Source: Auricularia sp. M13 (Eukaryota; Basidiomycota; Agaricomycetes; Auriculariales; Auriculariaceae). From it: DNA of 64,000 nucleotides. The stretch spans positions 2,914,001-2,978,000 of the forward strand of contig CM073196.1 in the NCBI GenBank assembly GCA_037042915.1. The letters are read 5' to 3'. This document shows, in pieces, positions 19,001 to 55,620 of the stretch. The translations under genes were made by a program, and so were the position numbers. The notes under the pieces were generated by a model. The model made no database searches. It was given only the letters and a program-made list of their open reading frames with translations, and was not told where the DNA came from. The stretch's first letter is position 1. Each line of letters opens with the position of its first letter.

Positions 19001-19277
19001 GTGAGGAACGTTCGGTAGTTCCTCGCCTTGCAGAGCAGCCTGCTCTGACGGCGACGGCAATACTATAATAAAGTAAGCTGCATATCCTGGCCAGTAGCAA
19101 GGATAAAAAGAACATACCATGCCTCAGGCGCTGCTCTTCCCGCACAATGATCTGGCGCCGTGTCCCGCTCAGCGCGGTGACAGCAGTGAACGCTCGGCCT
19201 GTCTGGGCCACGACCTGCGTCATCTTGCGCTTCTTGGGGGCATTGCTGCTCGTCTGCAGCTGCCTGAGGCGCCGCAT
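16039..19277 (-). CDS. KDZ-1 transposase
   Basis: A KDZ transposase gene on the minus strand has about seven short introns (for example near 19,065-19,118, 18,832-18,878, 18,575-18,635, 18,160-18,212, 17,730-17,780, 17,095-17,142 and 16,705-16,760). In order: a basic N-terminus (NAPKKRKM); a CxC-type cysteine-cluster region ending HSCPPCNYK; a segment with WKNM, FFEQTGIF, VCRHGR and MIRSGEL; then YDIGCGF, NAFHGHAHNCMCQL, YTPGVGLEDLE and HYRQFIDMHFQHWDD; and a C-terminal coiled-coil (LQRAREEITRCNVEARRL, WIDDEDQ). These motifs are characteristic of KDZ transposases, which have an RNase-H-like catalytic core. A single-base frameshift is apparent near 16,605 (frame of AVKEL to that of NPAAAELQW), so the copy may be inactive unless this is a sequencing error. 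I used the ATG at 19,277; an upstream exon cannot be excluded. Confidence 0.88.
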
Positions 19278-19391
19278 GTGTTGAGGCTGGTCGCGGTCAC
19301 GGTCCAAGAGGTTCAACCAGCGCCCGGAAGGTAAACAGAGAATTCAGTTGTTCCCTTAATCACATTTAAAAATATAATGTGCATATAGAAG

Positions 19392-21818: not shown

Positions 21819-21910
21819 TGTGGTAGTCGTGGGTGGTCGGGACAAGTCAAGATAAGGAATCAGCCGATATACATCCGAGTCAATCTATCCTACTACTCCA
21901 GCCTGCCACA
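21819..21910 (-). repeat. Gypsy 3' LTR (92 bases)
   Basis: TGTGGTAG...CTGCCACA, identical to the copy at 27,895-27,986. At 92 bases it is very short for a Ty3/Gypsy LTR and leaves little room for a conventional U3 promoter. Confidence 0.93.
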
Positions 21911-21981
21911 GGTGCCCCCCCTGAGGAGATGCACCTCCTGGTGCATAATCGCCCCACAAACGACCTATCGCCCCACAAAAC

Positions 21982-27894: not shown

Positions 27895-27986
27895 TGTGGT
27901 AGTCGTGGGTGGTCGGGACAAGTCAAGATAAGGAATCAGCCGATATACATCCGAGTCAATCTATCCTACTACTCCAGCCTGCCACA
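27895..27986 (-). repeat. Gypsy 5' LTR (92 bases)
   Basis: Identical to the LTR at 21,819-21,910. It lies upstream of gag in the element's minus-strand orientation. Confidence 0.93.
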
Positions 27987-28339
27987 CCGGGCACCCCGAC
28001 CACATGCGCAACCCGCCGCGACAGCTGGTCTATCAGGTTCATCGAACGGTCCTAGCAGAGAGAGCACCGGCCCTCTGGATATTCGAACAGGCAACAGTGG
28101 ACATCTTGCTTACCGACTTGATAAATGCAGGTTGGATTGCACAGGCCAACGATGGATGTGTGTTTCTTGAAGACGGTTCGGTTGGAACAGTGGAGGATGG
28201 CGGCGAGCTTCTGCGGCTGGCGGTTCCGTGCAGTGAAGCCCGCATCCTCCTTCTGAGCAGAGCCAGGCTGCGGGGTGATACGGTCAGAGCGATCACAGCT
28301 CTAGAGCGACCTGGCGCACCATGGACGAGTGGTACATAG
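27987..28339 (+). pseudogene. 3' part of host-type gene split by Gypsy element
   Basis: This continues the gene starting at 21,474. It encodes about 117 more residues (GHPDHMRN, QATVDILLTDLINAGW, CVFLEDGSVGTVEDGGEL) and stops at 28,339. An AATAAA polyadenylation-like signal lies at 28,420-28,426. The original protein would have been about 210 residues. No domain is recognised. The short length and basic N-terminus are compatible with a small nuclear protein, which is inference only. Confidence 0.55.
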
Positions 28340-28439: not shown

Positions 28440-29202
28440 TGTTACGACCCATGCTCGTCCGACCCCTCTCCACCCTTCGGTCCTCTCGCCTCGCCCTTCC
28501 TTCGGTTCGAGTATATCTATTCTTCACTCGATTACCCTCGCTTCCCTTCGCTTCCATTCCCTTCCATTTCCTTTCGCCTCGCTTCCCTTCGATCCTATCG
28601 GTCTCGCTTCGCCTTCGCATCGCTCCGCTCGACCCGGATCACCTTCTAACACATTCTAGTATCTTCTTAATCATCTTCCGTCACTCCCTTTCGCTTCCTA
28701 AGCACTCTGTCATCATCCTGACTCACTCCGCTCGATATCGGATCACTCTGACTGCGATCACTGCGCATTCCTGTGTTTCGTACTTCTATTGTTGATCCGA
28801 CCGGTCTAGCAGTTACCCGAGTGTCTCCCATGTGATTCTGTGCTTTCCTATTTGTATCCTTGCCTTGCTTTGATGTACTCTAGTTCGAAAACCGACTTAG
28901 CAACGAAATAGCAACAGCCTAGCTTCGTCCCACCTCACTAGAGCCGCGCCACTCAATCCGGCCGCTCTCCTCGCTCGCCTCGCTTTCTATCGGCACCTTC
29001 GGCTCACTCTTCCTTCTATCGACGCTCGAGTACCTCGATTACCTCTCGAGCGCCCCCGTTCGCCTACTACGGGCTCCGGGGGCCATAGGTCATCTGTCGG
29101 GCCACCCGTCAAGGTTCCCCTTCCGCGCCTGGCTCCCCGTCTTAGACATCGGTCTATCGGTCGATCCGAGGCGTCCTAGTCGGTTCGGTCACGCGCTTAA
29201 CA
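28440..29202 (+). mobile_element. Solo LTR, family 1 (copy b)
   Basis: A 763-base sequence TGTTACGACCC...CGCGCTTAACA is flanked by perfect 5-base duplications CATGT (28,435-28,439 and 29,203-29,207). It matches the reverse complement of 1,787-2,547 at roughly 90 percent by eye. A CT-rich upstream half and no internal retroelement sequence fit a solo LTR. The intact duplication suggests it is not very old. Confidence 0.9.
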
Positions 29203-29473: not shown

Positions 29474-31554
29474 CTATAGCACGTTGTCTAGCACATCACT
29501 CTCGACAACAACAGGGAAATACTCTGCCACACGAGCCGCATGAGCCCTCCCATCCCTGCCCTCCGTCGTCATCGAGTGCATGGTCGATTGCGAGAACCAA
29601 ACAACGCTGCCCCGTCCGCCCGGTCTTGAGAGCGGGACCTCCTGCGAATTTTTCTGCGTCGGCCGCTCACCCTTCTTGCACTTGACAAGGCGGATATTGA
29701 AGTGCAGAAGCAGGGCGGATGGGTAAAGGACAAACGCGCCGTGAGGGCATTGCAGTATCACACCCAACTCCCAGAGCACGATCCACGACCACTCATCCTC
29801 GCCGACCAATCCTGAGAATAGATCAGCAGCGCGCTCAACTACAGCAAGAACTGCACGAGCTGACCATCATCCCAGTAAGCAAGAAGGGCGCAGAATAACG
29901 CCGCAACATTGCGTGAGTCGGAGTGGGGGGTGGTGATGCAGCGCTCGATGCCGGCTTCGGGGGAGGGGACGTTGACGCAGCAATTCCAAAACAGACCAAA
30001 CAGAGGCCCGCATGATGCAGCACCCTGCGGGGATCGCGCGCGGTGCCATGCCGCGTTGTCCTTCATTCGCTTGGCCATGTTCAGAAAACGGCGCTCCAAT
30101 ATGTTCGTAAGAACGGCCCTGCAATCGAGCTGTCAGCGGCCAGCGTTCACAATGGACGCAACGCCCTACGTATAGCGCGACATCAGCCCATCAGGACGCA
30201 TCAGCCAGTCAACGGACGTGCGGTATTTTCTGTGAAATGCGGTTTCAAAAGGCTCCTGCAAGTCGGAAATAAGTAACGGAGGGCGGAACAGTAGTAGAAA
30301 CAGACCGAGGCATACTGTCGATGAATGCCCATGCAACCAAAGTAGTGCTGGCCACGAAGATTAGCGACGCGGTCCTTCTTCGGGATGGGACAGTGCTGGG
30401 CAAAGAGCTGGAGATCTTTCGATAGCTTGTTGATGAGGCTCTCGCCGGCTTTGATGTCCAGCACAACCTTGGAGCGGAAGGCAACGCAGTGGCCGCTACG
30501 GTCGCATATGGCAAGGTCGGCGTCGTTGGCGGCGTCGTAAGGCACTACATGCATCTCGCCCAGCATGTCGAGCAGCTGCGGTGTGCCGTAGGCTGCGCGG
30601 ATGGCATCCCGCTTCCAGTGAGGCACGCTGCCGCAGTTTCCGGACCTCGCGACGTTCAGACGCTCAAGGTCTGGCACAGGAGCGGCCGCAGCGTCATGTG
30701 CGGGTAAAATAGGGCTGAGCACGACAGTCTGCCTCGCGGCCTCGCGTCTCGCGCTCCTGGCGACGTTGATGGGCCTCTGGTTGCGCTTCTTCGCCGGCCC
30801 GGGCGCAGGAAGAGGCTCAGGGGGCGGGCGTGACGACATAGCTGCCTTTGCGGCATCGTAGACAAGCTGTGTTGGCGCAATAGGAACGGGGTAGTAGTCG
30901 AATTCATCCCGGATGGAGATGCACGGAGCCAGCTGCAAGACACGGCCGTTGGAGTCCACCATTCGTGCTTCATAGGCGACGGCAGGGGGAGCCAGCACTT
31001 TCGCGCCGTTGGTCGAAATCCTGGCTTTGGTGTTGGCGGATTTGAGCCGCTTCGAGCCCGTCGTTGAGCAGTCAGACGCGTCGTCACGCGCGTGTTTGAC
31101 CCCCGAAGACTGTGGAGCGCAGGTAGGCTGGATCGGAGGTTTTTTGACGGCAGCTGCTGCTCTTTGTTTGGCGGTTTTGGCCGCACGCGCGCATGACCGA
31201 GTGAAGTAGGGCCTTTGAACACGGTCGGGTACAGAGAGCAGGGGATCAGGATCGAGATCCTCGTCGTTGAGGCTCAAGCCAGCATGCGTAATGCGCTCGA
31301 TGATGCAGAAGTCCGGTAGTGCGACCAAGACGTCGTCAGCTCTGGTTTCGAACTTGGGCAGGCTGCAGAGCTCAGCGACCGTCACGTTGCCAGGCTGCGC
31401 AGACGTACAGCTCGTGGATAAGCTCCTCCGCTGATGCACGGGCGAGCGCAAACTCTCTAGGCGAGGCGTCTAGCTCCTGGATGCCGGAAATCATCGATTG
31501 GATATCGGATTCCTGACTATAGGGCGTAGCGGACGAAGCTGAGGCGCTCTTCAT
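29474..31554 (-). CDS. TET/JBP-like 2OG-Fe(II) dioxygenase
   Basis: A multi-exon minus-strand gene with its start ATG at 31,554 (MKSASASSATPYS). The N-terminal half is low-complexity and basic (GSKRLKSANTKAR, AKKRNQRPINVARSARREA). The catalytic half contains YGTPQLLDMLGEMHV, AICDRSGHCVAFRS, GQHYFGCMGIHRQ, then GLFWNCCVNVPSP and TTPHSDSRNVAAL. In the last of these PHSD supplies an HxD iron-binding pair (His codon near 29,923, Asp near 29,917). Later come WIVLWELGVILQCP, YPSALLLHFNI (candidate distal His near 29,703) and GRGSVVWFSQ (candidate 2-oxoglutarate-binding Arg). This order matches fungal TET/JBP-type dioxygenases, some of which oxidise 5-methylcytosine in DNA and which are expanded alongside KDZ transposons in basidiomycetes. 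Exons join across introns near 31,365-31,415, 30,120-30,215 and 29,810-29,840. Activity on DNA is inferred. Confidence 0.68.
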
Positions 31555-31840
31555 GTTAGGGGCCAGCAAGCCTAGCACATGCCCCAGAACGCGCGCAGGT
31601 TCGACCGACACAACCGATAGCCAGGCCCGGAGAGCAGCCGTCTAGCTGCGTCTGAGGTGTGTGCGGTAGTGAGGTCGGTGGACACGCGGTTTGGTCGGAC
31701 TTTAAACCGCAGCAACGTGCTCTGTTTGCTCCGCCAGAGCACCCTGCCTGGCAGCTTGCAGCCCATGCTGTTGCGTTGAATCTACCCAAAAAGATCATCC
31801 CAAGAACCTAGTGTCTCGCATTTATTAATGTTTTTCTTAT

Positions 31841-34709
31841 TTGGCGGCCATGTGTCGGTGCGCTTTATTCGTCAAGAATCGCCTCGCTCGGACCCATGCA
31901 TTCGCGCATCTTCTGGAATTACATACGCAGCAGTTGGCTCACGCCATTAACTCATCTCCGGGCTTCAAGAGGATTCGTACGTCATCTCGTCCGTCGTGGG
32001 GTGTGCGAGCGCTCGACCTTCACAACAGCCACGGCCTGGTCGACGAAAGACGCGCCGAGGTGGATGTGCATAATCTGCAACCACTCTGGCTACCATGGCT
32101 CTGCTTGCAGCTGCAGCATGCGAGCCTGAGTGCAGACTGCGACGGCAACGGCTGCACGCTGGCGTTACCAGGCGGCGCGACCTTCCGTCTCCTGCACAGC
32201 TGCGCAGCGTGCTCGAGCTCGACGGCCTGGGCGGTGGAGAAGAGCGTGGGCAAGCCTCGAGACGGAGTCGCCCCCGCAGCGCTGCATCGCCGAAAAGCCG
32301 TGGAAGCGCAGGCGCATGAGCCCGATGGTAGTCGGCGTGCTCAGCTTGTCGATGCGCTGCAGGCGCAGGTACGGCCCAAAGTGCGCGTGAGCAGGTATCT
32401 GCGTGGCGCGGCGCTTGTGCTCCTCGATCTTCGCGATTTCCTGTCGAGCTGCGTTGCACACGGACTCCTTGAACAGCTTCTGAAGCACGAGGCGGTCGTC
32501 AAGCAGCAGCCTGTGCGGGTTGCAAGAATAGCTCGAGCGAGCGAGCAGCTTCTGCAGGCTGCACGGCACCTCGCTTGCCGCAATCGCATCGCCGCCCGCG
32601 AGCAGCTTCAGCGGCTTCTCCACGGGCTTGACCTCCGGCACGCCCGTCATCAGGTCCTTCTCCTGCGCCGCCTCGACGACGCCCAGAGCCTCGACCAGCG
32701 CGCTGTGGCCCAGATTGAAGCAGACGCGTAGGCCGGCGTCTCAGAGTCTCGTGCAGCAACCGTCGTTGGCGACGCAGCGTGCCCTCGCAGTCCGGGCTCG
32801 ACGCGATGACGATACAAGTTGTGGCCAAGCTCCAATTCGGACGAGGAGAGCGAGTTGTGCGGCAGCGTCGAGGTGGCCGCGGCGGACGATTAAACGGAAG
32901 GCTGCAACCTGCGGGCGCAAATTGCACGGCGAGGAGGAGCTACTGAAGGACGAGGCGCGCCAACGTGCGGGCGTTTGCGGCGGCGAGGCGGTCATCGCCA
33001 GCGGCAAGGCGCTGCTGATGGCGAACAGCACGTCTTCGTCTCCTGAGGTCTAATCAGAGTGTCAGCGTTGATGCGCGAGCAAAAGGGAGGAACGTACGGC
33101 AAGCTTCGTCTCATACTTGATCCAGGGCAGCGTGACCTCGTATACGGACACCTCGAGCCGCTTCTGGTGCGAGGTGATCGCCGGGAAGCAGCCTGCGCGC
33201 ATTGCTGACCAGCTCGAGCAACGTTGTGGTCGAGCTCCATTTTGGACGAGGAGAACGAGTTGTGTGGCAGAAGCAGAGGATGGGAAACATAAGGCGGTGA
33301 GCTGCCGTGGCGCGTTAGACGGCAAGAAGGAACCGCGGACAAGGCGCGCGAGCTGGCGTGTGCCGCGACGAGGTGGTCAACGCGAGCGACGAGCGCCGCT
33401 GATGGCAAACAGCCCGTCTTGGTCACCTCAGGTCTAATCAAATCGCGGCCGAGCGTCAGGGTCAATGCGCGAGCAAAAGGGAGGGCAGGGCAGGACGTAC
33501 GGCAAGCTTCTGGAGCTTGTGTGATCACGCTCTCGCGCTTATGCGCCCTCGTTCCTCAATGTGACAGACGGCAGGATACCGCTGCCAGTGTCGTTGCGAT
33601 CCGAGTCAAGCTGACGATAGTCGAGGGTGAGCTTGGCCGCGCGGCCGTGTAGATGCGGCGGCGCGACGAGGTTGTGAGCGTGCCGGCCCTGTCGCTGTCG
33701 CAACTTAAAACTGGAGACCAAAGAGCGGGATAGAGAACGCGCATGGTACTGGTGATGCTTGAGCCATGTCGCCGGCGGCGCAGAGATCTTGAGCGCCGAC
33801 ACTCGACGACCCGAGTGACGGACACGCGCAGTGTGCGTCGAGCTTGGCCTGCAGCTTCTCCCGCGCTGCCGGCACGCGCTCACGGTCATCCTTCTTGTTT
33901 GACCGCAAGATCTATCGGCCGAGCTGGTGGTTTGAAGACCAGCAGGACGGCGGCATCGCGCTCCCATCGCGTTGAAGGCACGTTGGCGGCCAACCCAGCA
34001 GAGCCGACCTCTTTAGGCTGCTTCATTATGGCATAGTCGGTCGCCATGCGCGAAAGCTCGGCCATTTCTTCAAGACCTGGTGCGGTCATTCTCCACGGCG
34101 TCGACAAGGGACGAACCAAGACCTGTTGAAACGCATGTCAATCATGGCAGAGTAAAGGATTATAGCCCATCGTACCTTGTTCTTGCATAAATACCAGCGG
34201 CAGGTGGGGCAGATGCCACCGAGCTCTAGGAATGCAAGCACGAACGGCACGGACGCGCAGAGCTAGTCGCCCATCATGCCGTCGAGCGTGGGTGTCACCA
34301 GCCATGGCTGCCATGGCCGAACGCAGTCGAGCGCGTTAAGGGCTTCGGACGTTTCTCGGCGATGTAGATACCCAACGCGTATGCTGGCGTCCAGGAGATC
34401 TCGTGTTGGAACTGCGAGCAGGCGATGTCGCAGCGCCGTGTCTGCAGACCACTTTTCCGTTATTCTTCCAGCGATGCCCCAGTCATCGCTGGGCTGCAGC
34501 GCTGCGGCGTTTGTCAGCAGCAGTCGGAAGCCCTGGCCGCAGGTGCGCGTTGAGCGTCGAGAGGAAGCAACGAGAGTCGAAGCAAGTTCACAAGCGGCAA
34601 AACCCGGGTACTTGCTGGATGTTTGCCTTCCAACTCCCACCCCCCAAAGCCAAGTCCAGAGATACATGGGCTTGCGGCGGACTGCCGTGTAGCAATGCAA
34701 GACAATCAC
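31841..34709 (-). CDS. Uncharacterised gene beside KDZ-2, possibly decayed
   Basis: Coding-like segments follow one another on the minus strand. Examples are QGFRLLLTNAAALQPSDDWG and RETSEALNALDCVRPW near 34,300-34,560; SVPFVLAFLELGGICPTCRWYLC near 34,190-34,260 with a CxxC pair; EEMAELSRMATDYAIMKQP near 34,030; LVAPPHLHGRAAKLTLDY near 33,640; and RLLLDDRLVLQKLFKESV near 32,480. Exon boundaries cannot be settled by eye and frame changes are frequent, so the gene may be partly degraded. A segment of about 295 bases is duplicated inside it. It lies between the KDZ-2 transposase and the dioxygenase gene on the same strand, as expected for element cargo. The family is not recognised. Confidence 0.4.
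32813..33107. repeat. Internal duplication, unit 1
   Basis: Shares with 33,221-33,515 the landmarks GTTGTGGCCAAGCTCCA (TTGTGGTCGAGCTCCA in unit 2), GGACGAGGAGA, GCGAGCAAAAGGGAGG and ACGTACGGCAAGCTTC in the same order. Identity is about 70 percent by eye, with units offset by about 408 bases. This is probably an old tandem duplication inside the uncharacterised minus-strand gene. Confidence 0.65.
33221..33515. repeat. Internal duplication, unit 2
   Basis: Second unit of the duplication described at 32,813-33,107, with small length changes between landmarks. Confidence 0.65.
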
Positions 34710-35032
34710 GAAGGCGACTTTTATTAAATGCTGTCCGACTCACAGAATCTCATTCTTCATGCTCCGAGCAGGCGCCGTTCACCGCAGAGGTTTGCGCTCC
34801 TCTCGCGCGCTCATGACACCTTGAACACCCCAATTTTTCGGCAGGAATACGTGCTACGGCTGCTTCACTCACGATTGTCAACGCTGCCTTGGTCGTCAAT
34901 TTCTTCTCCGTGTGTCGTCACGCCCGTTTACGGATAGCATGCTGACACTGCGACCTGCCGACCCTCTATCTAATCGCATGAACATTGCGCAACGGAGCAA
35001 ACCAAAAGATTTACAGGAAAGACCACTCAATA
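34710..35032. other. Spacer between gene and KDZ-2 transposase
   Basis: No gene is supported. It should hold the 3' untranslated region of the transposase and the promoter of the downstream gene. Confidence 0.4.
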
Positions 35033-38000
35033 TCACCGTCCACCCCTCAAATTGAGAAAGTTAAGTAAGTTAGTAAGGAAATGGACGGTGATGCACTGAC
35101 CTTCATCACTCTTCTCTTCACGCGCAACATTGCGCTTTTGCCCTACAACCTGTCCCGAAAGAAGCTTTGCTGCCTTCTGCTCGCATTCCTCGGCCTGACG
35201 AAGGCGCTGTGTGTAAATGGCGGCTTGTTTGAGTGCATACGCCTGACTTCCTCTCCAGGCACGCTCAGACGAAGAGTCCGCGATAGGTGGCGTTGCGGCA
35301 ACGTCCTGCCAAATTGCGGCCATCCTCTTGAAGGATGCAATGGTGCGCGCAAGTTCAGCTTGAATAATGTCGATCTCTTCCCGGCAGCGGTCGCGATGTG
35401 CTCGAGCTCGAAACCAGCGCACGCGGACCTCTAAGTCAGAGATCAACAAGCGCCAATTGGCTCAAGGTGAGCACTCACCCTCTTCCGAAAGCTCGTCCAA
35501 CGACTTCTGATCCTTGGCCTCACCAACATCTCGATCGCCTCCCCAGAACCATGACTGCGGCAGCTGGCTCTCCCCAAGTTTGGCCGGCTGTGTGGCCGCA
35601 ACGTGAAGGTGCTTGAGATCATCATCTGTGAGCGACTGGTATCTGACACGGTCCTCGTCAGCGATGCCAAGCGACTCCATGGCAAGGTAATGGCGTCAGT
35701 AGGCATTTGCGTGCTTGTGGATTCGTTTGAAGTTGCCCTGCATGGACTCCCCAGCGCGAGTCGTGGGTCCGTAACCTCAGATGTTGCGTTGCTTGAAGGT
35801 GAGTGCTCTGTTTGACGCCTGGATGGCGAGCTTCATGTTTGCTATTGCGGTGTCTGCAGCGGATCGCCGGAGCAAGTACTCGCGCTCGCCGAGTGCAAGA
35901 AAGCCGTGCGTCCTCCTGTCTTCAGCGTTTGCCCAGTCTGATGGCAGCGACAGTGCCTCGTCTTCCGGGTGTCCAAAGTCCTCGCTGATGTGGAAGCTAA
36001 AGTCCTGACGGCACCGAGCCAAGCGCGGGCATGTGGACTTCTTGCATGAGGTGGAAGCTCGTAAGGTCGTCGCGCAAGTCTGCACGTTTGGATCGCAGTT
36101 GCCGGAGTTGCTCTGTTGATGGTGTTTCTGGTAACGAGGCAATAAACTCCTTGATGCGCAATCTACGCAGGGTCAAACACCTCATTTAAAAACGGCCGTG
36201 AGTACGCACTGTTTTGTCTCAAGATCCAGCGCCAAGTTCAAAAATGCTGCGCTGGACTGGGAGCTGTCAAAGTCGAGGTTTCCAATGGCATGAGCCTCCG
36301 CCTCTTCTTGACGAGTGAGCGCTGCAACAAGTTCACTTTGCTTGGGGACTAGGGAGCGTGAGAACAAACCGGATGTGTTCATAAAAGCAGGACACACCTT
36401 TCATGCGGTCCGCGCGGTACACACTGCGCCAGAGCCCGTCCTCGAGCCAGGCAACCGTAGGTAGTGCCTCCCATTCGGCGATGGTACTGTCTTCGATGCC
36501 CGCGTTGATGGTTTGAAAATTCCGTTCTGCATCTGCGTGCTTTTTGAGCTCCTCTCGGAGCTTATCAACAAGTGAGGTTGCTACAAGCACATCAGCGACG
36601 GGTCGAAAAGATAAATTCAGAAGTTACCCATCGCCACAAGCTTTCGATAATTCCAGTCGCCGTTTGAGTCATCGAAAGTGTCCTTCCGATGGCCAAGATT
36701 TTGGTCCTTCGTGATCTTTGCGGTTTCATTGCTGTGCGCCCACGGCCGCTCGACGCCCTCTCCGTCTGTGCGCCCAAGCCCGACGGTGTAGTGAGGCGCA
36801 AATCGAAAGCGGCAGTCGTCTTTATGGCCTTGTAAATGCATCTTGTTGATGAGCACCGTCGTATTCTTCACAACCGGGGCAAGCTCTGGGAAGCTATGCT
36901 CAAAGCGCTCGTGAAGCCAGACGCCGTACTGACAGCCCTTGTCGCACAGTAGAAACCTGGGCAGCTGGTCATTGGGCGACTTTCCCAGCGATCCGGCAAA
37001 TGCGAAGTCGTTGAGACAGAATCTAACGAAGCATCAGTCTTTGATTCCCTCCAAGCTCCCTGCAGAGAGCTACTCACTTCTCGCCAAGCGTCATGTCGAC
37101 GACGGAGTTAGGGCGATACGTCGAATGCCAAACACAGAAAACGGCAATGACGCCAGAGACAATGATGCCTTTGCGATTTGTGTAGGAGCTCATGCTCCGA
37201 AGATTTGCGCAGGTTGATTTATGCTACTCAGTTCAGTATCACTCTAAGGTCAAATGTGCATTGCAAACCTTGTTGGGATCATCCGATGCATTGGACTCAA
37301 TAGTAGCGTTCTCCTTCGAGTCAGTGAAGTAGCCGCGGCCGTCGAGGAGAGGTGCATCTTCGGGGTCATGGCGCTTCTGAATAACCACTGCACGAAAGTT
37401 CCCGTCGATGCCGAGATAGAGAGCGGACTGGTGCCTGCAAGCCAATGAGCATCTGGCGCAAGTGATGAGGCAGTACGAACAGGTTGGATGGATTGACGTG
37501 CTGCTCCCAGCCGTCGGGCATGTTGAACCCAGGCTCCGGGCATGCAGGGCATAGTACAGCGACGCTGTCACTGCCATTTGGCAGGAACTTCGCAATACCA
37601 AGGGCCTGCCCACTGCGCTTAAGCCGCATCAGGCAGCACCACTCCTGAGACACACGTAAGAGCTCTTCGTAGCGATCCTGGACAAAGGTCAGATTAGATT
37701 GTGCTACCCAAAACGATGTCCTACCGGGAGACCGTGGGATCGTGTATTATCAGTCAAGCGGCGAAGTAGCGCCCAGTAGTCATATGCCGGTTTCCGGGAT
37801 TGCAGGCTATTGAGGTGATAGTGTTTCAGAAGATGGATGGTAAACGACGTCTGAGGTGAGTCCCACGTCGCAGGATAAAGTGATGAAGCAAGCAGCTGGA
37901 ATGCGTCCGATGGCGCACGGGGGCAGCGACAGTAGACAATCCGGAGTCGATGGATGCCGTTCGTGTGCACAACAATTAGAGTTGGACTACGGTCAGAGGC

Positions 38001-38619
38001 GTAAGGACACCTGGTCCCATCGTGACCCAGGCATAGCTGGAAGTTCGACTTGTGAAGGCTCCAGCGGCGAAAGTAGGACCCGGTCCATTTCTCGAGACGA
38101 TGGAATGGAAGATGCAGATGCAGTTCACACATGCAATCCTCGCATACTGGGGCTCGATGGATGCAGTCCAGACATCGCAGCGTTCGAACGGCGCTTTCTT
38201 TGCCGCACGAACAAGACTTAGCAATTAAGGGCTCAATTTCGAGACAAAATAGAGCAGCGAGTATATCTGGCGACCGTTCAAGGAATTCCTTCATTGCTTG
38301 GGATGTGGGCTGTGGGAGGTTTGGGCGGAGTGCGTGGCAATCAGGGATTGAAACGGACCTTCCAGTTTGACGACCGTTTGAAGCGCCTGAAGCTGGCTCA
38401 GGTAGGTCCGGAATTGGCAGTGGTGTTGAACGCGAACTGCCGCTGATATTCTGCGGGGTAGGCGATGCTTTGGGCACTGGGACAAACGATGTCGGGACTT
38501 GAGCATCACCCTCGTAATTGGCTTCAACTTCTGGGCTCTGCTCAGCATCGTCGTAGTCTACTTCAAGAGTACTTGCGTGTTTTTTCTTATGCGGCCGAGC
38601 ACGCTTGCGAGGGGGCATA
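35033..38619 (-). CDS. KDZ-2 transposase (CxC2-type)
   Basis: Start ATG at 38,619 (MPPRKRARPHKKK, a basic nuclear-type start), stop at 35,033. In order: an acidic/Pro-rich N-terminal region; a cysteine-rich CxC2-type zinc cluster (CSCGKES, RCLDC, VCEDCMCELHLHLPFHRLE, LGHDGTRCPY, GIHRLRIVYCRCP); the conserved FTIHLLKHYHLNSLQ and LLRRLTDN; a catalytic-core region with CPACPEPGFNMPDGW, YLGIDGNF, CDKGCQYGVW, HLQGHKDDCRFRFAPHYTV, GLGRTDGEGVERPWAHSN and GHRKDTFDDSNGDWNY; and a long helical C-terminus (FHLMQEVHMPALG, VRVRWFRARAHRDRCREE). This matches KDZ transposases with the CxC2 cluster. Introns are short and numerous, around 37,665-37,700, 37,425-37,440, 37,200-37,262, 37,023-37,075 and 36,590-36,630. 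Compared with KDZ-1 it is a different subfamily. I saw no obvious disruption by eye. Confidence 0.88.
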
Positions 38620-38942: not shown

Positions 38943-39358
38943 TATAAGAATCCCGGAGAGCTGTACGAGCAAGGACAACGATAAGCTGTACGAGCAAGGA
39001 CAACGATAAGCTCGACGGCTCTCAGTGTAAGCAAAGGACACGGTGTATTGCTAACCTGTACGAGCAAGGACAACGATAAGCTAAAAGAATGTGAGATACA
39101 TGCTAAACAGGCTGGCAAGACGGTATCGTACCTCGACGGCTCTCAGTGTAAGCAAAGGACACGGTGAGAGACGCCGAGTGTGGGAGTCTGGACTATATAC
39201 TCATCAGGCTTGAGCATAGCATTGGTGGTCAGAGGGCTATGATAACGAGAGTGAGCATTACAAAGAATCAGAAAAGGAATGATGTCGTCTTCAGGAACGG
39301 GGACAACGCCGAGGCATCGGACATGCGCAGCTTGCCCGTGGTATACAGGAATCTCACA
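38943..39358 (-). repeat. Copia 3' LTR
   Basis: 416 bases, TATAAGAATCCC...GGAATCTCACA on the plus strand. It contains three copies of a 25-base unit around GTACGAGCAAGGACAACGAT and two copies of a 35-base unit beginning CTCGACGGCTCTCAGTG, so the LTR is internally repetitive. Confidence 0.93.
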
Positions 39359-39365
39359 CTCCCCC

Positions 39366-41585
39366 TCAAGCTGAGCGTAGCCCAAGTGCCGAGGCGAAAT
39401 GCTTGACCTTGACGGAGGGTAGCGCCTTCGTCAGCGCGTCAGCGACCATATCGTCGGTCGGACAGTAGACGAGTCGCATGCGGCCGTCCTCGACAACCCA
39501 ACGGATAAAATGGAAGCGGATGTCGATGTGCTTCGTCCGCGCGTGGTACTGGTGGTCCTGCGTGAGCGCGATGGCCGACTGATTGTCAGAAAAGAGAGTG
39601 GTGGCGCCGGAGATCGGCACGAAGATCTGCGAGAGTAGCAAGCGAATCCAGAGGCCTTCCTTCATAGCCTCCGTCGCAGCGACGTACTCGCTCTCGGTGG
39701 TGGACAGGGAGACGATGGTCTGGCGCTTCGAAGCCCAGGAAACGGCGCCGCTGTCGACGAGATACGCATAGCCCGAGATCGCGCGCCGATCCTCCGCCAT
39801 GCTGCCGTCTGCTTCCGCGTAGCCCTTCAAGTCGCCCGATACAGCGCCAAACGTCAGCCAGAGGTCGCGCGTTCCCTTGAGGTACTTGAACACGCGTACG
39901 GCAGCCTCCCAGTGCGCAATGCCCGGATTCTGACCGAAGCGGGACAGAACGTTGACCGCGAACGCGATATCCGGCCGCGTTGCGAGCATCGCGTACATCA
40001 GCGAGCCAACGGCCTCCTTGTACGGCTTACTACGCATGACGGCGTATTCAGCAGGTGTGTGCGGCCCCTGCGCAGCGGAGAGGCGCGCGTTCGGGTCCAT
40101 CGGGATGCTGACTGGCTTCACCTCCTCCAGGTTGTACCGCGCCAGGATCAAGTCGATATACGAGCGCTGCGACAGCGCGATGGTCTTCTGCTCGCGGTCG
40201 CGACGCACCTCGATGCCCAGGAGCCAATGCAGGTTGCCCAGGTCGGTCATCTCGACATGCTTGCTCAGATCGGCCTTGAACTGCTGCACCAGCCGCGGCG
40301 AGCTCGCCGCGATCGTACAATCGTCCACATGCACGACGATAATCTCGAGGTCGCCGCCAGAATGCTTGAAGAAGACCGCCTGGTCGACGTCGGAGCGAGA
40401 GAAGCCAAGCGCGTCTACGAGAATCTCCACCAATCGCTGGTACCACCGGCGGCCGGACTGTTTCAACCCATACAACGTCTTCTTCAGCCGGCACACCTTG
40501 CCTGCGGAACCGGCGACCTCGTAACCCGGAGGTTGACGCATATAGATAACCTCGTCGGCGGTGAGTTGCCCGTTCAAGTAGGCCCCTTTGATGTCAACCT
40601 GCTCCAGCTCCATGTCGAGTCGAGCGGCCATGGCGAGAACGACTCGGATCGATGACAGCTTGGCAACGGGAGCGTAGGTGTCGAAGTAGTCGACGCCCGG
40701 GACCTGCGAGAAACCCTGCACAACAAGTCGGGCCTTGTAGCGCGCGATTGCCCCGGCGGCGTCCTTTTTCGCACGAAACACCCACTTGGATCCGACCACA
40801 TTGGCGTTTTCAGGTGCGTCAACGCGCTCCCAGGTGCCCATCGCGTCCAGCGTGTCGAGCTCCTCACGAATGGCAGCTTCCCACAGCGGCCAGTCTTCGC
40901 AGGTGCGGGCTTCGGCGAGTGTGCGCGGCTCCAGCGCCTCGGCCGCGGCAATCTCTGCCGCCAGCGCCAGCTCGTCCTCGTCAACCGAAATGACCCAGTC
41001 GCTCTCGCCGGTGGCCTCGAAGACTTCAGTGGGACGCTTTGCGGGCCAAACAGGTGCGTTACGGGCGGGCTCCGGAGCAGCGGCTTGCTGACCAGCTGCA
41101 GCACCAACAGCCACACCTTGGATGCGTACGGCATGGCGACGACGCTCTCCGGCGACGTTGTCCATGTCGACCTTTGGTGGCGGCTGCCATTGCGGGTTCT
41201 GGGCCGTCTGACGGCGAGTCAGCATCTGCGGAGCAACCGGCGCATGCACAGCTTTGATCTTTGCGGTCTCGGACTCGTTTGGCACGCGCGAGGGCTTGTT
41301 CGACGCGCGCGGAGCAGGGCTTTCAGGCGATACCTCGCGCTTTGGAATTGGCACAGCGGCCGGCGAACACGGTTTGGATTTCGTCGGCTGCTCTGGCTCT
41401 GGCTGCGCGGCGGGTTGGAAACCTCTCAGCTCCCCCTCAAGCGCGCGCGCAGCCTCATTTGCAGGCTCTTCAGCGACGTAGACGTTACGCTCGACCGTCA
41501 CTGCCTTCCGATCCGGCCAGTATATGCGGTGACCCTGCATCGCCGCAAACCCGACAAACCGGCCCTGCACAACACGGCCTCCGCC
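39366..41585 (-). CDS. Copia reverse transcriptase and RNase H
   Basis: Begins within the integrase C-terminal region (GRFVGFAAMQGHRIYWPDRK), then reverse transcriptase (ALEPRTLAEA, KWVFRAKKDAAG, VDIKGAYLNGQL, the VVHVDDCTIAAS catalytic box) and RNase H (YAEADGSMAEDRRAIS, TTESEYVAATEAMKE, LFSDNQSAIALT, KHIDIRFHFIRW). Stop at 39,366, eight bases before the 3' LTR. Well preserved. Confidence 0.92.
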   Translation of the reverse strand, partial: GGGRVVQGRFVGFAAMQGHRIYWPDRKAVTVERNVYVAEEPANEAARALEGELRGFQPAAQPEPEQPTKSKPCSPAAVPIPKREVSPESPAPRASNKPSRVPNESETAKIKAVHAPVAPQMLTRRQTAQNPQWQPPPKVDMDNVAGERRRHAVRIQGVAVGAAAGQQAAAPEPARNAPVWPAKRPTEVFEATGESDWVISVDEDELALAAEIAAAEALEPRTLAEARTCEDWPLWEAAIREELDTLDAMGTWERVDAPENANVVGSKWVFRAKKDAAGAIARYKARLVVQGFSQVPGVDYFDTYAPVAKLSSIRVVLAMAARLDMELEQVDIKGAYLNGQLTADEVIYMRQPPGYEVAGSAGKVCRLKKTLYGLKQSGRRWYQRLVEILVDALGFSRSDVDQAVFFKHSGGDLEIIVVHVDDCTIAASSPRLVQQFKADLSKHVEMTDLGNLHWLLGIEVRRDREQKTIALSQRSYIDLILARYNLEEVKPVSIPMDPNARLSAAQGPHTPAEYAVMRSKPYKEAVGSLMYAMLATRPDIAFAVNVLSRFGQNPGIAHWEAAVRVFKYLKGTRDLWLTFGAVSGDLKGYAEADGSMAEDRRAISGYAYLVDSGAVSWASKRQTIVSLSTTESEYVAATEAMKEGLWIRLLLSQIFVPISGATTLFSDNQSAIALTQDHQYHARTKHIDIRFHFIRWVVEDGRMRLVYCPTDDMVADALTKALPSVKVKHFASALGLRSA

Positions 41586-41699
41586 GGGTCACGAGAAAAC
41601 CGTGCGCACGTGCGCGGGGTCCGTGCACAGCAGTAATCCTGCCCTAGAAGACTGTTCAGACATCCTAGAATGATTGTTGAGGGTCATTCCAGTAGCTTA

Positions 41700-42080
41700 C
41701 TGTAAGCACACGCTCTATTACCGCGTCACGCGTCACAGAGGTCGCGCGGCGCGGTAATAAACGCGTTTTGTAATGGGTCACAGAGTGCCCGAGGTATTGA
41801 GACGTCACAGCACATCGAGATGCGAGAGCTCAGATCCAGCCAAAAATTTCTTTCCCGCTTCGCGGCAGTCCAGTAAGCCTTCAAATAACATCTCCATCAC
41901 CACTGACTGACTTCTCATCTGTCCGGCTGGTGAGAATTCCAATTTCCTCTCTCAAGAGGTGTTTTTTGCCTGAGAAGATGAACGAACTCCCGGTAATGGT
42001 CACGGTCACGGCCATCTCATGGTAATGTCCCCGCCATGTCACAGAGGTTGCAGCGCCGGTAATAGAGCGTGTGCTTACAG
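41700..42080. mobile_element. 381-base MITE with TA target duplication
   Basis: Inverted ends CTGTAAGCACACGCTCTATTA and the reverse complement GGTAATAGAGCGTGTGCTTACAG, with TA on each side (41,698-41,699 and 42,081-42,082). No coding capacity. The interior has inverted stretches such as CTCATGGTAATG and GTCACGGTCACGG. A 2-base TA duplication points to Tc1/mariner-type mobilisation. Confidence 0.85.
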
Positions 42081-42177
42081 TACACCTACCCGCACATGTC
42101 TGTGTGCACAAACCTATCAAACCTTAAAAACTGGCCAAGATATTGTCAAATTACTGGTTTCAAGTTCCACACGCATG

Positions 42178-42428
42178 TTGCGCACGTTGCGCACGGATGC
42201 GCACGGACTGCGCACGGATTTTTCTCACTGCGCACGAAAGTTGAAATCATGCGCACGGATTGTAAATCTGTGCGCACGGATGAAGGAGGACTGCGCACGG
42301 ATTGTGATTTTGTGCGCACGACATTTTGGACCCTGCGCACGGATGTTAGAATCATGCGCACGGACATGGTAGACATGCGCACGGATATGCTGACACTGCG
42401 CACGGATTTTGTGTGTTGCGCACGGATT
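42178..42428 (+). repeat. Left subterminal TGCGCACGGA array
   Basis: Fourteen copies of TGCGCACG(GAT) in the plus orientation, spaced mostly 17-21 bases apart with unrelated spacers of 5-10 bases. Open frames across it encode repeated RTD or CAR tripeptides, a by-product of spacing. The right-hand array (55,348-55,597) is in the same orientation. Confidence 0.92.
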
Positions 42429-45400
42429 CTGTATAAAGCACAATTGCATTACTTTTTTTTACTTTGGCACATCTAGGCGACTTGATTGAACTCATTGAAG
42501 TTCATTAACAAACACCAACAATTTCCATAAGTCTTGTTGCAATTGACTGCTCAAGTACAGTTTGTTAATACATGAAGTGTCTCGGTCGAAGAGACACGAG
42601 ACACGCGTTTTGGGCCAAAGGAGCGGACTTGGAAAGCCGAAGCCTTCCTGTCCGCTCCGACCACCTCAGCGAAGCGGAGACATCTCCATCTCGCAGCTTC
42701 CCTGGGTGTTTCTTGCTTGTGGGCTACCCAGGTCTTCTTTCCCTCGAGGTTGTCCTGGCTCTCGCTACGAACACGCGTCAAACGGCTCGTCGCTGCTGCC
42801 CCTATCGCCACACCAGACTGCGCGCGCTCCGACGCGACTCTGCCCTTGCCGCGCACCTATCGAAGAAACTGCCCTCGCTTGTGACTTGCTATGCCGCCGA
42901 GACGTGCGCCCGCCCCCAGCGAGGACGACGATGCTCAGGAGGAGGGCCAACAGGGGTCCCCGACGCGCCCGTCCCACCTGTTCGCGTGCCGGTCCCGCGC
43001 AAGCGCGTCGTTCCCTTGCCCACCGACCGCGAGACCAGAAACCAGTCGCGTCGCAGGCAGGACGAGGAGGACGATTCGTCGCCTACCAGGCCGCCGGCGA
43101 GACGCTCCAACCCCGAGAAGTTGGCCGAGATCGTGGCACGGAGCTCTGCGGCGGCCGCGGCGAGGACTGCCGCTGCAACTGCAGCTGCCGCCAAGAAGCG
43201 CAAGGAGGCGAAGGCGGCTCACGAGCACGAGCGCCAGGAGCGCGAGCGCGAGCACGAGCGCGAGCGCGAGCATGGGCGTCGCGGCTTGGACTTCCTGGTT
43301 GACGACGACCAGGACGACGACGGCGAGGAGGAAGAGCCTCTGGTGCCTCCGGGAGACGTCGACATCGATGACGACGTCGATGACGACGACGACGTCGACG
43401 CACGCCGGCGGCAGCCGTCGGACGAGGACTTCTTCAACCAGCCCACCGGACGCCAGACAGACTTCGCCCGTCGCCTGCAACGATCCGTGCCGTCTCCCGC
43501 TCGTCGCGGCAGAGCTAACGTCCGCATCGTGTCGCCCAGCTTGGGTCCTATCGACGAGGACGACGACGACGCGCCGCCTGCTCAGCGCCGCGCTAGGCCG
43601 GGCTTTGGGAGGCGCGCGTCCGCGCCGCCGCGCAACAGGAGCAGTGCCTTCTCGCGGCCGCTGAGGCCTAATTCCGTCCCCGACGACGCTCAGCCCACTG
43701 AGCCTGAGCTGCCGCTGCAGGATGAGGACTACGAGGACGACTTGCCGCTTCACCAGCGCGGGTATCTCTCGGATGAGGGCACCCCTGGACGCGTCACCGG
43801 TACGTTCAATTTCGGTGCTTGCATGGCAGCACGAGGCACGCATGGCGGCCGTTTTTCGAGCGCGTACGCTTGGCGGCGCTGCTCAGAGCACGCATGGCGG
43901 CTCGTCCGGACTACGCTTAGCGGGTCTGGGTTGCCTCTTGCGCACGCTTGGCGGCGCGAGGCGTGGATCCATGCTGTGCGTGGATCCTGGATCGCCGGAT
44001 CGCTGGTCTGCAATCTGCAGATCAGTCGATCGCCACGCGGCCTCCGTGCTGCCGTGCTTGCTTGAAGATGCGTGCATGTGCTCACTGGCGCTGCAGGTAG
44101 ACGTCAGCGCCGCTCGCCTGCGTCCGTGTCGCCCGAGCACAAGAAGGCGCGCTTCGATCGCTTCGTCGAGGGCAGGACCGTGGAGGCCACGCAAGCGATC
44201 ATCACGAACGCGGGCGGCGAAGATCATTCGCGCGGGCCTCTCATCGTACCTACCGCTGCATTACCTGTCGGACGAGGTCTTCGATCAGGAGGAGAATGCG
44301 CGCGTCGTCGTCGTTGGGGATCCCGATGCGGCCAAGCCGCCCGTCGTCACCGTCGTTGAGCGCGAGGCTACGTACGATCTGTGGTGCCAGTGGTCGGACC
44401 GCTTGCTCGCCGCACTCTCGGCGCTGCGCGTTCCCTTGGGCCTTTACAGGATGGTCTCGCGCCATTTCAAGATCGTGCGCAACAGCAGGCACCTGCGCCA
44501 GTCCTGGTCCGTTTGGCGGGCTTATGACATCGCGATGCGCAAGAAGCTCGTGCTCGCGAAACCACCTGACATCGGCATCTTCGACGAGACGACCTTCAAG
44601 ATCGTCGACCGCGAGGACTTCGAAGCGCTCCGTCGCGCGCGTTCGAGCTCAATGCGCGCGCAGAGAAGATGCTCAGCGGCAAGACCAGGCCGTCCGCGAG
44701 CTCGGCCGCCGTCGCGAAGAGACCTACCGCCGCGCCGACGAAGAAGGCCGACGTGTACGAGCGCTGCTTGCTGTGCGGCTCATGGGCTCACGTATTCTCC
44801 AAGGAGAAGGGCACGCGACAGGACTGCAAGATCAGCCCCGTATGGCTTGACTGGGACGCCGTCGCGCGCGTCTTCAAGATCCCTGGCACCGACGCTGTCG
44901 TTTGCTGGGCGTCTTGTGTCCCTTTCTTCGCACTGTTTTCATGACAGTGTGTGTGTGGGTGTTGCCCGACTCATCTGGCCAGTGAGACGCTCAAAATTGC
45001 GCCTTGGATCGCTCGAAAACGCGATTCTGGACCAGTTTTGGCTATTTGGCGAACTTAGGCGCATTTGAGCCAATGGGCAGTGTGAGATCCGAGTTGGGAA
45101 CCCAACCCGGCCTCCTGGCACGAAAAACCACATGCGAAGAGAAACTGAGACAAAAGAACAAACAAGAGCTCTCTCAGAGAGAGAAACCAAACAGGGTGGG
45201 ACGGTGGGCGCGAAGAACACTCCTTTGATAGGAGGTTGGTGGTGGGCGGAGCGTGTCAAGAAGCGATGCTTCCGACCATCGCGCTCCGCCGGCACAAGAC
45301 GCACTTCTCTGGTCTCTTCGACCGAGAAGTTTCATCTTGTGTCCCTTTCTTCGCACTGTTTTCATGACAGTGTGTGTGTGGGTGTTGCCCGACTCATCTG

Positions 45401-45709
45401 GCCAGTGAGACGCTCAAAATTGCGCCTTGGATCGCTCGAAAATGCGATTCTGGACCAGTTTTGGCTATTTGGCGAACTTAGGCGCATTTGAGCCAATGGG
45501 CAGTGTGAGATCCGAGTTGGGAACCCAACCAAGCGAGAAACCCAACTCGGAAAGAGCGAGAACCCACACAAGAGGAAGAAAGGATGAGCCTGAGGCTCTG
45601 AATTAATCAATTGTGTTTGAAACCACAATTTACCTTTAACATGTGACAACAGCAATTCATGTTCAACCTACAGCAGCAATTCACGTTCAACCTAAGAAGC
45701 CAAGACAAA

Positions 45710-46867
45710 TCAATTACCAGACCAGTGGACATCACAAAGGTCGGTGTGCGAGGCGATTATGTTATCAACAGACCTCCAATAGCGCAGGAAGGAGTCTGAC
45801 TTCCATCTGCCTCCCTTCTTGACGATCTCCACATCGACCCCAAGACGAAGGAGGGCAGTTGTGCCGCCGATGCGAAAACAGTGGCCAGACACCTTCTTCA
45901 TGCCCGCAGCCTCCCAAATCTCGTTCAGCCGCGAAAGGAACGCATTCTTCGTGAGTGCGACGAGATCATCCTTGGCGTTGCGATAGGCGAACAGCGGATC
46001 GTCGAGTCCAACGCGATTATCCGCAATATGTTCCTGCAACGCGAAGGACGGGTCGTTGTGATGCCTAGCGAGGCACACCGACTCCCCGCGCCGCGCCGTC
46101 TTCGTCATCGGCAACCACAACGTCGTCTCCTCAGTGGAGGCAAGACCACCGGCGTCATGTCGTAGCTTGAGATGTTTGCGCAGCGGCAGGCGCGATGAGT
46201 CGTATCGCCTCGTCAAAGATAGCACCTCGCCCAAGCGAAGCTGTCCCCAGAAGACGACGAGGAGCGCAGCAGCCACACACTGGTCGAACGGCCGGTGTTC
46301 GTCGAGAGCGTTCAAAGCCTCATCGACCATGGCCATCGTCACCGGCGGTCTGGGTTCCAGCCTCGACTCCGCTGGAGCCATCTGTGTCACCGCGTCCAGG
46401 ATGCGCGCGAGCCTCGGCGAGCCTTTCCAGTTGGCGCCCTGCGACTCGTGCCAAAAACGCAAGCCAGCCAGAGCGGATCGAGCAGTTCCCCCCGCATAAG
46501 CACCCGCGTACGACGCCGCGAAGGCGCACAGCAGCGGTTCAGCTACCGGCAGGTGGCGAGACTCGTCCGGAACGCGTTCCGTAGCACACCATTCGAGGAA
46601 TCGGAGCCTGGCACGGTCGTAGCCAGCACGCGTAGAGTCTGTGATAGCCGCGTCATGCACCGACATCGTCCGGCGCCATGTCGCGTTCGAGAGCATGTCG
46701 AGTAACAGACGGTCGAGGTCAAGCCGCAGATCACACGTGTCACTCCGCGCCGCACGACGTCGCGCGCATGTGATTCTGTGAGACAGCGGATCCGCCGATC
46801 CGTCGATCCCGGATTCACCGCGCAAGTCTGCAGATCCATACCAGGCTGCCGCATGTCCGAAGACCAT
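45710..46867 (-). CDS. Tyrosine recombinase of DIRS-order element 2
   Basis: About 385 codons, probably starting near MLSNATWRRTM. Shows Arg in GQLRLGEVL, the HxxR box in GHCFRIGGTTALL and nucleophile Tyr in FLRYWRSVD. Closely related to 53,099-54,109. Frame intact. Confidence 0.92.
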   Translation of the reverse strand: MVFGHAAAWYGSADLRGESGIDGSADPLSHRITCARRRAARSDTCDLRLDLDRLLLDMLSNATWRRTMSVHDAAITDSTRAGYDRARLRFLEWCATERVPDESRHLPVAEPLLCAFAASYAGAYAGGTARSALAGLRFWHESQGANWKGSPRLARILDAVTQMAPAESRLEPRPPVTMAMVDEALNALDEHRPFDQCVAAALLVVFWGQLRLGEVLSLTRRYDSSRLPLRKHLKLRHDAGGLASTEETTLWLPMTKTARRGESVCLARHHNDPSFALQEHIADNRVGLDDPLFAYRNAKDDLVALTKNAFLSRLNEIWEAAGMKKVSGHCFRIGGTTALLRLGVDVEIVKKGGRWKSDSFLRYWRSVDNIIASHTDLCDVHWSGN

Positions 46868-46880
46868 CTATAAAGCGTAT

Positions 46881-48690
46881 TTAAACAACATGTTCAATCC
46901 ATTCTCTGATAGCGAATGGGATCTTAAAAACGAAGCCAGCTCGAGGCAGCCCCGGGCACGGGATACCACGCGAGGGTCCGTCCGCTATGTTGGCGGCCGA
47001 CTCCACCCAGTCCAACGTCAACCAGATGTCGTGCTCCATCATCCCCGCTACTATGCGCTGGAGCACGCGGTTAGACTGCGGGTTGCGCGACCGTCCGTTG
47101 TCCAGAGCTCCAACGACGCCCTGGTTGTCTCCACGCACGATGACATGGGCAGCGCGAACGCCGCGCTCGACCAGCGCCTTCAGGCCAAACTCGACAGCGA
47201 CCATCTCGGCCCATCCGATATCACGGCCGTCGGTTTTCCAACCCGGAATAAGCCTCCAGTGGTCCCAATAGCCGTCGAGGACGATGCCAACGCCAAAGGC
47301 AGTCGAGGCGTCCACGAAAAGCGAGACGGGCAGCGGCGCCGCGATCTCCTTGATGGGTTTTCCACAGAACGACCGTGCTAGACATTCCTTCCACCAGGCA
47401 ATGTCCTCGAGAACGGCGCTGTTCGGCGCGTGTCGCACGAACGCATTGGGAAACGAGCCAGCGAAGCGCGACAGAAGCGGCAACCTCGAGCGACCCTCCG
47501 GGACAACGGTCGAGCAATACACGAGCTTCCCGAGCAAGCTCTGCGCGTCGTTGCGCGTGAACGTGGCGCCCTTGATCCAGACTTCGGCAGCGGCGATGTA
47601 TTTCGCCTTCTTCTTCGGAGTAACCTCGACTGTCATAGCCACCAGATCCCAGTCCAAGCCGATATACGTGAAGCGCGTAGCGAACGGGCAAGTCTTCTTG
47701 GGGCTCCAGGGCCAGCCGAGTTCATCAGCGAAGTCATAAATGTCGTCCTCCGTGAGCTCGTAGCCACCCGAGTCCAGGAGATACCGCCAGAACGTGAAGT
47801 CGTCCGCCCAATTAAGGGTGTCCGACCGAGCGTATCGAAACTTGAAGAGACCGCGGAACGCGTCTGCGAGTCTGCCCCAAAGACCTGAGGACGAGGCCGC
47901 GCCGAACTGGCAGGTGAAACCGAGCGCTACCTTCCCGTTCCATGCGATGGTGTAGAAAGCTTGTTGCCATGGCTTCACGGGAATACGACGGTGAGCAGCC
48001 TTCACATCGAACACAGCAACCTGAGTACCAGCCGGAGCCCTGGCTGCCATCAAGTAGCACTGGGAAAAAGTCCCCCAATCGCAAGGAAACTCGTCCTGGT
48101 CAATCCCCGAGTTGAACGACGGGTCCAGCGGGTCATCGCGCGGGTGGGAGAAGTCTTGGCAAACGCGACCCTCCGCGTAGTCACCATTCTTCGGCGCAAT
48201 TGTCAACGGAGCGTTGCGAAAAGGACCTATAAGCTCTGCCAGGATGTCGGGCTCGAAGAACTGGGAAATGCGACCTTCGGCCTGCTCTTCATCGATCATC
48301 TTCTCGATCACACCAGGATAACGTAGCGCAGGACCATGGTTCTCATAGAGCTTGTAGGGAAGCGAAGTACGTGCGAAATAAGCATCAACGACGTCGTGTC
48401 GAAGACCAACATCGAAACCATTCAACAGACCATCTGGAATAGAGGGAAACATAGCCAGCAGACCCGCACGCTCCAGCTGAAGGCGCCAGGCCTCGTGCTT
48501 GAGCGGCGTAACGATACGGAAAGGGTACGGAACGGCGATGGGAGTGGGAGGCGGCACAGTCACCGACGGCGGAGCCATCACACGCGTGGAAAGAACAGCA
48601 GCAGAAGAGACACGGGTGGGGGCGCTATCCGAGCGCGAGAGCGAAGCAGCGCTATCCGAGCGCGAGACCGAAGCAGCAAAAGCAAGCGCG
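46881..48690 (-). CDS. Reverse transcriptase/RNase H of DIRS-order element 2
   Basis: Motifs in order: PLTIAPKNGDYAEGRVCQD, FDVKAAHRRIPVKPWQQ, GFTCQFGAASSSGLWGRL, the catalytic LNWADDFTFWRYL, then RNase H with SLFVDASTAFGVGIVLDG, EMVAVEFGLKAL, RGDNQGVVGALDNG and a final ANIADGPSRG box. The frame is open further upstream where it overlaps gag. Well preserved. Confidence 0.9.
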
Positions 48691-48693
48691 CGT

Positions 48694-53020: not shown

Positions 53021-53098
53021 GATCGGTGATCGCGATTTGCGGATTGTCAGATCTGCGATCACGGCTTGAATTAGAGTGCGCCACGTCACTCGTGGCTC

Positions 53099-55597: not shown

Positions 55598-55620
55598 TTT
55601 TCTAGGGGTCCGCCTCCGCC

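Follow-up and report, generated by a model that had tools for sequence, protein, structure and literature searches.

A disrupted, probable TET-carrying KDZ transposon with a divergent TET/JBP-like gene in Auricularia sp. M13

The stretch of DNA analysed here, 64,000 nucleotides long and referred to as the window (C4:2914001-2978000, where C-numbers denote contigs), contains a disrupted new member of the known TET-carrying KDZ transposons, with a divergent TET gene. We consider it probable that the window preserves the ruins of a KDZ transposon with three genes (TET, a third gene convergent with it, and the KDZ transposase), in which the surviving TET gene stems from a second copy and the TET protein has an anti-silencing role. 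The ancestral unit would have carried a gene for a TET/JBP-family 2-oxoglutarate/Fe(II) dioxygenase, followed by the convergent third gene and, downstream on the TET strand, by the KDZ gene. The TET gene at 29474-31554 would have been left by a second, neighbouring copy of the element, the other genes of which are gone. The enzyme made by living copies may oxidise a methylated base in the DNA of the element, most likely 5mC and possibly 6mA, and this oxidation would loosen the silencing that the host imposes on the transposase.

The TET gene occupies exactly the interval 29474-31554 of the minus strand in which the original prediction had placed a dioxygenase-like gene with HxD, distal His and Arg motifs, and its five exons give one spliced frame of 626 aa without stop or other lesion. 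Exon 1 (31409-31554, start codon at 31554), exon 2 with the N-terminal part (30306-31362), exon 3 (30170-30255), exon 4 with the HxD motif (29865-30118; codon of H495 at 29925-29923 and of D497 at 29919-29917) and exon 5 (29474-29811; distal H551 at 29704-29702, R581 at 29614-29612, stop codon at 29474) all lie on the minus strand and are separated by GT-AG introns of 46, 50, 51 and 53 nt, the splicing of which restores the single frame. A search of the 52.1-Mb genome (14 contigs) found relatives at six other places; a weak match of 44 residues at C2:5047k was excluded from the subsequent counts. The group to which the window gene belongs, called TET-B, has seven loci, six of them with an open catalytic region, and in the alignment of these six (A1) H495, D497, H551 and R581 are invariant in every member, D497 being the sole invariant Asp. 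The closest relative is the copy on C6, with 81% identity in the catalytic region. Resemblance to the C6 and C9 copies extends from window position 29480 to about 31625, the DNA around exon 1 having 75-78% identity with both. Between the window and C6, 73% of the synonymous and 10.7% of the non-synonymous sites in the catalytic exons differ, and since synonymous change is near saturation the resulting non-synonymous/synonymous ratio of 0.04 is rough. These substitutions point to strong purifying selection on TET relative to its closest relative, and a functional protein was clearly produced by living copies. With a spliced frame, relatives elsewhere in the genome and purifying selection, the gene is real and more than a product of chance.

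KDZ-2, the transposase next to TET, lies on the same strand as TET, as predicted, both being on the minus strand. It spans about 35036-38618, with the CxC2 cluster at about 37743-38054 (PF18803, E 1.6e-31, 109.1 bits against a cut-off of 27) and the pieces of the KDZ domain within 36650-37424 (PF18758, E 2.2e-25, 90.1 bits against a cut-off of 26.6). Towards the C terminus its reading frame is broken near 36003 and interrupted by two in-frame stops, near 35778 and 35697, whereas the equivalent part of the KDZ gene on C6 reads through as a single frame of 383 aa. KDZ-2 is a pseudogene of a KDZ transposase, while the neighbouring TET gene is intact. The window copy cannot be mobilised by KDZ-2, and its TET could act only in trans, if at all.

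The one uncharacterised gene that had been proposed between TET and KDZ-2 dissolved on inspection, the interval of 31.6-35.0 kb being composed of broken polymerase fragments and short similar stretches. The sequence at 31970-32719 (minus strand), which corresponds to the proposed gene, is a broken piece of the host's gene for mitochondrial RNA polymerase, 75-83% identical to C7:941575-942480 and interrupted by stops and a gap, and a second fragment of the same gene follows at 33102-33219 (minus strand, 83% identity over 120 nt). The C7 copy has the expected domains of that gene (PF14700, E 2.5e-70; PF00940, E 1e-17). As judged from these comparisons there is no gene in the interval. From 31970 to 34394 the DNA is a patchwork in which the polymerase fragments are joined by stretches of 59-245 nt resembling C6:3091k, C8:1145k, C11:2973k and C3:215k.

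Other TET-like loci of the genome were sorted into groups. TET-A denotes the 17 strongest (E up to 1.2e-4) among 27 six-frame matches of the genome to Pfam Tet_JBP, four of the 27 exceeding the cut-off of that model; TET-C denotes 12 loci and TET-D eight loci, the latter 36-45% identical to the TET-C query. KDZ loci, numbering at least 95, were merged by hand from 149 matches.

At C6:3697-3705 kb, read along the minus strand, a TET-B gene is followed by a plus-strand third gene and then by KDZ. The same order is present at C9:54-62 kb (locus L043, C9:53001-63000), where TET is reduced to its 5' end beside the third gene. This C9 cassette has lost its TET, and about 1.9 kb are inserted between its KDZ and its third gene. 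A search for the third gene gave 14 matches in the genome. Ten of these lie 1.0-2.6 kb from a TET-C gene and converge with it, so that 10 of the 12 TET-C loci have a convergent third gene; the other four are the match beside TET-B on C6 and those on C9, in the window and on C5, the last with no TET near and the nearest KDZ 31 kb away. Downstream of TET-C a KDZ gene on the same strand was found at all 12 loci, at 8.4-9.9 kb in ten, 13.1 kb in one and 21.7 kb in one, the last paired manually, since another KDZ, on the opposite strand, is nearer. A TET-C element lying at C1:75.4-90.7 kb shares 31-38% identity with C6 in its KDZ pieces; its third gene is 34-35% identical to the third genes of C6 and C9. 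With such divergence in both genes, the cassette is old. The third gene itself belongs to no Pfam family (stray hits with E values of 0.071 and 0.21). When ends together with a target-site duplication (TSD) of 7-8 bp were sought for the C6 element, the candidate TSDs were no better than chance. The 9-mer GTCGGACTT occurs near the starts of TET and KDZ in the window, C6 and C9 and is too short to interpret.

The linkage of TET and KDZ that the original prediction had proposed is thus borne out at the level of the element family, in C6 and at 12 of 12 TET-C loci. The particular order that it had proposed, with an unknown gene between transposase and oxidase, is not borne out: the middle holds no gene, the conserved order is the reverse, and a nearest KDZ that is on the TET strand, upstream of TET and within 12 kb occurs at one of 44 TET loci among the KDZ matches listed, namely in the window. 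At C6 and the TET-C loci the order is TET first, then the convergent third gene (at 10 of the 12 TET-C loci), with KDZ farther downstream on the strand of TET.

The third gene of the window survives on the plus strand at 58543-59944, seemingly out of frame at its 3' end and without a Pfam family; it has 65% identity to the third gene of C6 and 61% to that of C9. It is separated from KDZ-2 by a 19.6-kb copia insertion with nested repeats at 38943-58504 (LTRs at 38943-39358 and 58089-58504, RVT_2 at 40098-40835; 5-bp TSD read as CTTGG). With the flanks of this insertion joined, the sequence aligns with C6 across the junction; the alignment with C9 stops before it. Within the insertion are two degenerate arrays of TGCGCACGGA-type repeats, at 42179-42413 and 55346-55576, about 13 kb apart. 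Past the third gene a remnant of the TET 3' flank is left at 59945-60034, where the similarity to C6 ends about 20 bp before the TET stop codon of C6, which means that the TET slot of the window is empty. The window TET sits on the far side of KDZ-2, and the window departs in this from the conserved order of TET-carrying KDZ transposons. A repeat of 763 bp, probably a solo LTR (28440-29202, TG..CA, TSD CATGT), is found 270 bp past the stop codon of TET and has at least 20 further copies among the matches listed, with 92-96% identity; farther left is an element in which short repeats occupy 21819-21920 and 27895-27997 and the frames look gypsy-like by eye. The window unit is flanked by LTR insertions. 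It calls for caution in general, since a transposase, a 'gene' and an oxidase found at one locus may be a wreck whose order is secondary.

How the displaced TET came to lie beyond KDZ-2 allows a second answer, namely that there was a single element and that the TET block was carried past KDZ-2 by one rearrangement, which could have gone through a circular intermediate or a tandem duplication, for example. In C6 coordinates the slot ends at 7797 and the sequence of the displaced TET begins at about 7826; two breaks that lie within about 30 bp of each other fit one moved block better than two copies. Beside the slot, however, at 60183-60263, there is a possible and weak remnant of the region upstream of TET, and the displaced TET keeps its own, which would make two copies of that stretch; the match would suit a second copy with a deletion. 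In a shuffle test none of 200 shuffles was as good as this match against the upstream region of the window TET, and two of 200 were against that of C6. The test is soft, as the genuine region upstream of the window TET does no better itself (7/200 against C6, 4/200 against C9), and part of the signal comes from a 9-mer that is also present upstream of KDZ-2. We lean, without being sure, towards remnants of two neighbouring copies over one rearranged copy, and regard the single rearrangement as a conceivable but rather doubtful course of events.

It may also be asked whether the window TET belongs to the host, or is becoming a host gene, with KDZ-2 as an accidental neighbour in a repeat-rich region. 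The intact TET beside a broken KDZ-2 would agree with this, as would the four of seven TET-B loci that have no KDZ within 12 kb among the KDZ matches listed. Counting any KDZ within 12 kb, at least 10 of 12 TET-C, at least 3 of 7 TET-B and at least 2 of 17 TET-A loci are positive and, among the KDZ matches listed, none of the 8 TET-D loci, compared with at least 5 of 62 copia RVT_2 loci taken as control (Fisher P of 2e-7 for TET-C, 0.03 for TET-B and 0.47 for TET-A, on the at least 95 KDZ loci). The five TET-B loci besides the window and C6 gave no match to the third gene. Still, the closest relative (81%, catalytic region) resides in the full cassette on C6, the window itself keeps the third gene and KDZ, and intactness over 1.9 kb of coding sequence proves little when taken alone. 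We therefore find a host gene unlikely.

Some TET copies of the genome lie apart from KDZ. Nearly identical TET-A copies with 202-aa frames (L037-L040) are present on C11, C4, C5 and C9, and a TET-A match at C12:796963-797355 has the same score. Among these copies that on C11 alone is within 12 kb of a listed KDZ, which suggests that another vehicle may spread them. The TET-D loci (including L069, L071-L073 and L076-L078), most with the motif HVDxKN..., are a TET branch outside the KDZ cassette, none of the eight being within 12 kb of a listed KDZ. A further KDZ element of the window, KDZ-1 at 9622-20880, looks complete (PF18758, E 1.6e-39); its inverted repeats of 1,460 bp are 100% complementary and it is bordered by an exact 8-bp TSD, GGCTGTGA, which indicates an apparently recent insertion. 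Queries from TET-A, -B, -C and -D found no TET in it. Nested in KDZ-1, at 12742-14421, is an inverted-repeat unit with (TTAGG)n arrays at 12970-13035 and 14105-14192 and, between the arrays, a 251-aa frame that has no Pfam match; at three contig ends no telomere repeat was found.

The assignment of the window protein to TET/JBP runs through intermediates. The protein and its five relatives had no hit in Pfam with E values up to 10, leaving the cut-off of Tet_JBP (PF12851) unreached; no PDB chain was matched by the window protein (phmmer) or by the six-relative profile (hmmsearch), and PHROGs returned only two undescribed families with one member each (E 0.32 and 0.39). The profile search proposed with the original prediction thus assigned the protein to no other dioxygenase family in Pfam or PHROGs. 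Compared directly with the TET-A profile by hhalign, the A1 profile of TET-B gave E 0.47, with 69 of 100 shuffles equal or better; a profile of six TET-A sequences matches the solved CcTet structure at E 1.7e-13. A bridging alignment (A4) was made of six TET-D and three TET-C sequences, all nine of which match Pfam Tet_JBP (best E 9.7e-5, none above the cut-off). A1 aligns with A4 at E 6.2e-5 over 82 columns, with the HxD and the distal His each in register and with a score of 37.0 that none of 100 column shuffles reached (maximum 21.9), and A4 aligns with TET-A at E 6.4e-5, again with none of 100 shuffles as good. An earlier bridging profile of TET-C alone (A3) had given E 0.03, with 2 of 100 shuffles as good, and its PDB search found only a frataxin-like chain (E 1.4); in the PDB search with A4, Tet entries appeared at E 0.44 (Naegleria Tet) to 1.6, mixed with Ifi204. 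By an ungapped count from the HxD His, an Asn at +5 and a Cys at +11 are invariant in TET-B, TET-C and TET-D as aligned in A1 and A4. Relatives of the window TET were also sought in a viral contig collection (48 pattern matches) and in a bacterial and archaeal one (25 pattern matches), and none of these matches was confirmed.

By these profile comparisons the window protein is probably a TET/JBP-family member, an assignment that is well supported but indirect, being made via the bridging relatives. The TET/JBP-like character that had been predicted accordingly stands as far as the A4 link carries it; a direct match to Pfam, the PDB or the CcTet-like TET-A is lacking. That the protein is a 2-oxoglutarate dioxygenase of another, undescribed family, like TET/JBP only in its metal-binding motifs, would fit this lack of a direct model or structure match and the Asn and Cys that replace Gly331 and Asp337 of CcTet, but is very unlikely in view of the profile link to a group with nine of nine Tet_JBP matches, the same transposon slot filled by the window-type TET and the bridging group, and no other family matching.

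With regard to function, the host has matches to cytosine methyltransferase, 11 at five places, and the CpG observed/expected ratio is 0.98-1.37 in 12 of 12 stretches, which speaks against a RIP-like loss of CpG. The copies of the 763-bp repeat at 1786-2548 and 28440-29202 differ by 34 transitions, 15 of them at CpG sites (Fisher 4e-4, based on rounded denominators). Such a CpG bias is expected if methylation acted on repeats, and it comes from one copy pair only. According to Kojima 2025 (PMC12730594), the TET genes that fungal transposons carry probably serve to remove silencing marks, a role described there as not experimentally validated. CcTet acts on 5mC and 6mA. A TET of the window type may likewise counter cytosine methylation.

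The wreck of a three-gene transposon, our preferred reading, is favoured by the TET frame with its splice sites and the four catalytic residues conserved in six of six TET-B members, the A4 link, the gene order at TET-C loci, the cassettes on C6 and C9, the emptied slot, the purifying selection on TET and the cytosine methyltransferase matches of the host. Against it count the missing direct TET/JBP match and the Asn/Cys at the places of CcTet Gly331/Asp337, a KDZ near TET-B at three of seven loci among those listed, five other TET-B loci without the third gene, the C6 ends and TSD that were not found, the breaks within about 30 bp and a CpG content without loss of the RIP kind. A more far-reaching idea, of which we are doubtful, is that of a further kind of transposon-borne TET/JBP with the motif HxDxxN(x5)C and a substrate other than that of CcTet, which would form an anti-silencing module with the third gene and have been kept through deep divergence. 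Standard domain models miss the transposon TET described here, so that TET-carrying transposons of fungi are probably under-counted, and KDZ elements contain a conserved third gene whose role, as cofactor, targeting factor or other, can be tested.

Expansions of TET/JBP linked to KDZ elements in basidiomycetes were reportedly described by Iyer and colleagues in 2014. TET-carrying KDZ DNA transposons of fungi are already published (Kojima 2025, PMC12730594), and the unit described here shares with them a TET/JBP gene and KDZ in one unit, on the same strand and in a fungus. Unlike them, the copy in the window is no longer alive, and its TET has been displaced. The unit of this genome also includes a convergent third gene; the excerpts examined of that paper name none for KDZ, whereas Harbinger is credited there with a third protein and IS3EU with an alpha-kinase. 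The PE-type TET/JBP of the same paper is, like the window protein, too diverged for ordinary searches, but has HxE where all six TET-B members have HxD, and the PE type was rejected for the window protein. With CcTet of Coprinopsis cinerea and the AG-type TET (PDB 7vpn, 7w5p, 8jkk) the window protein has in common a fungal origin and an HxD...H core, although it has no match to CcTet, in contrast to TET-A of the same genome (E 1.7e-13). The AG type is defined by Gly or Ser in the position of CcTet Gly331 and by Asp in that of Asp337, and Asp337 is said to be essential on 5mC (Kojima 2025, PMC12730594); TET-B has Asn and Cys at these places, by ungapped count from the HxD His, and the AG type was likewise rejected.
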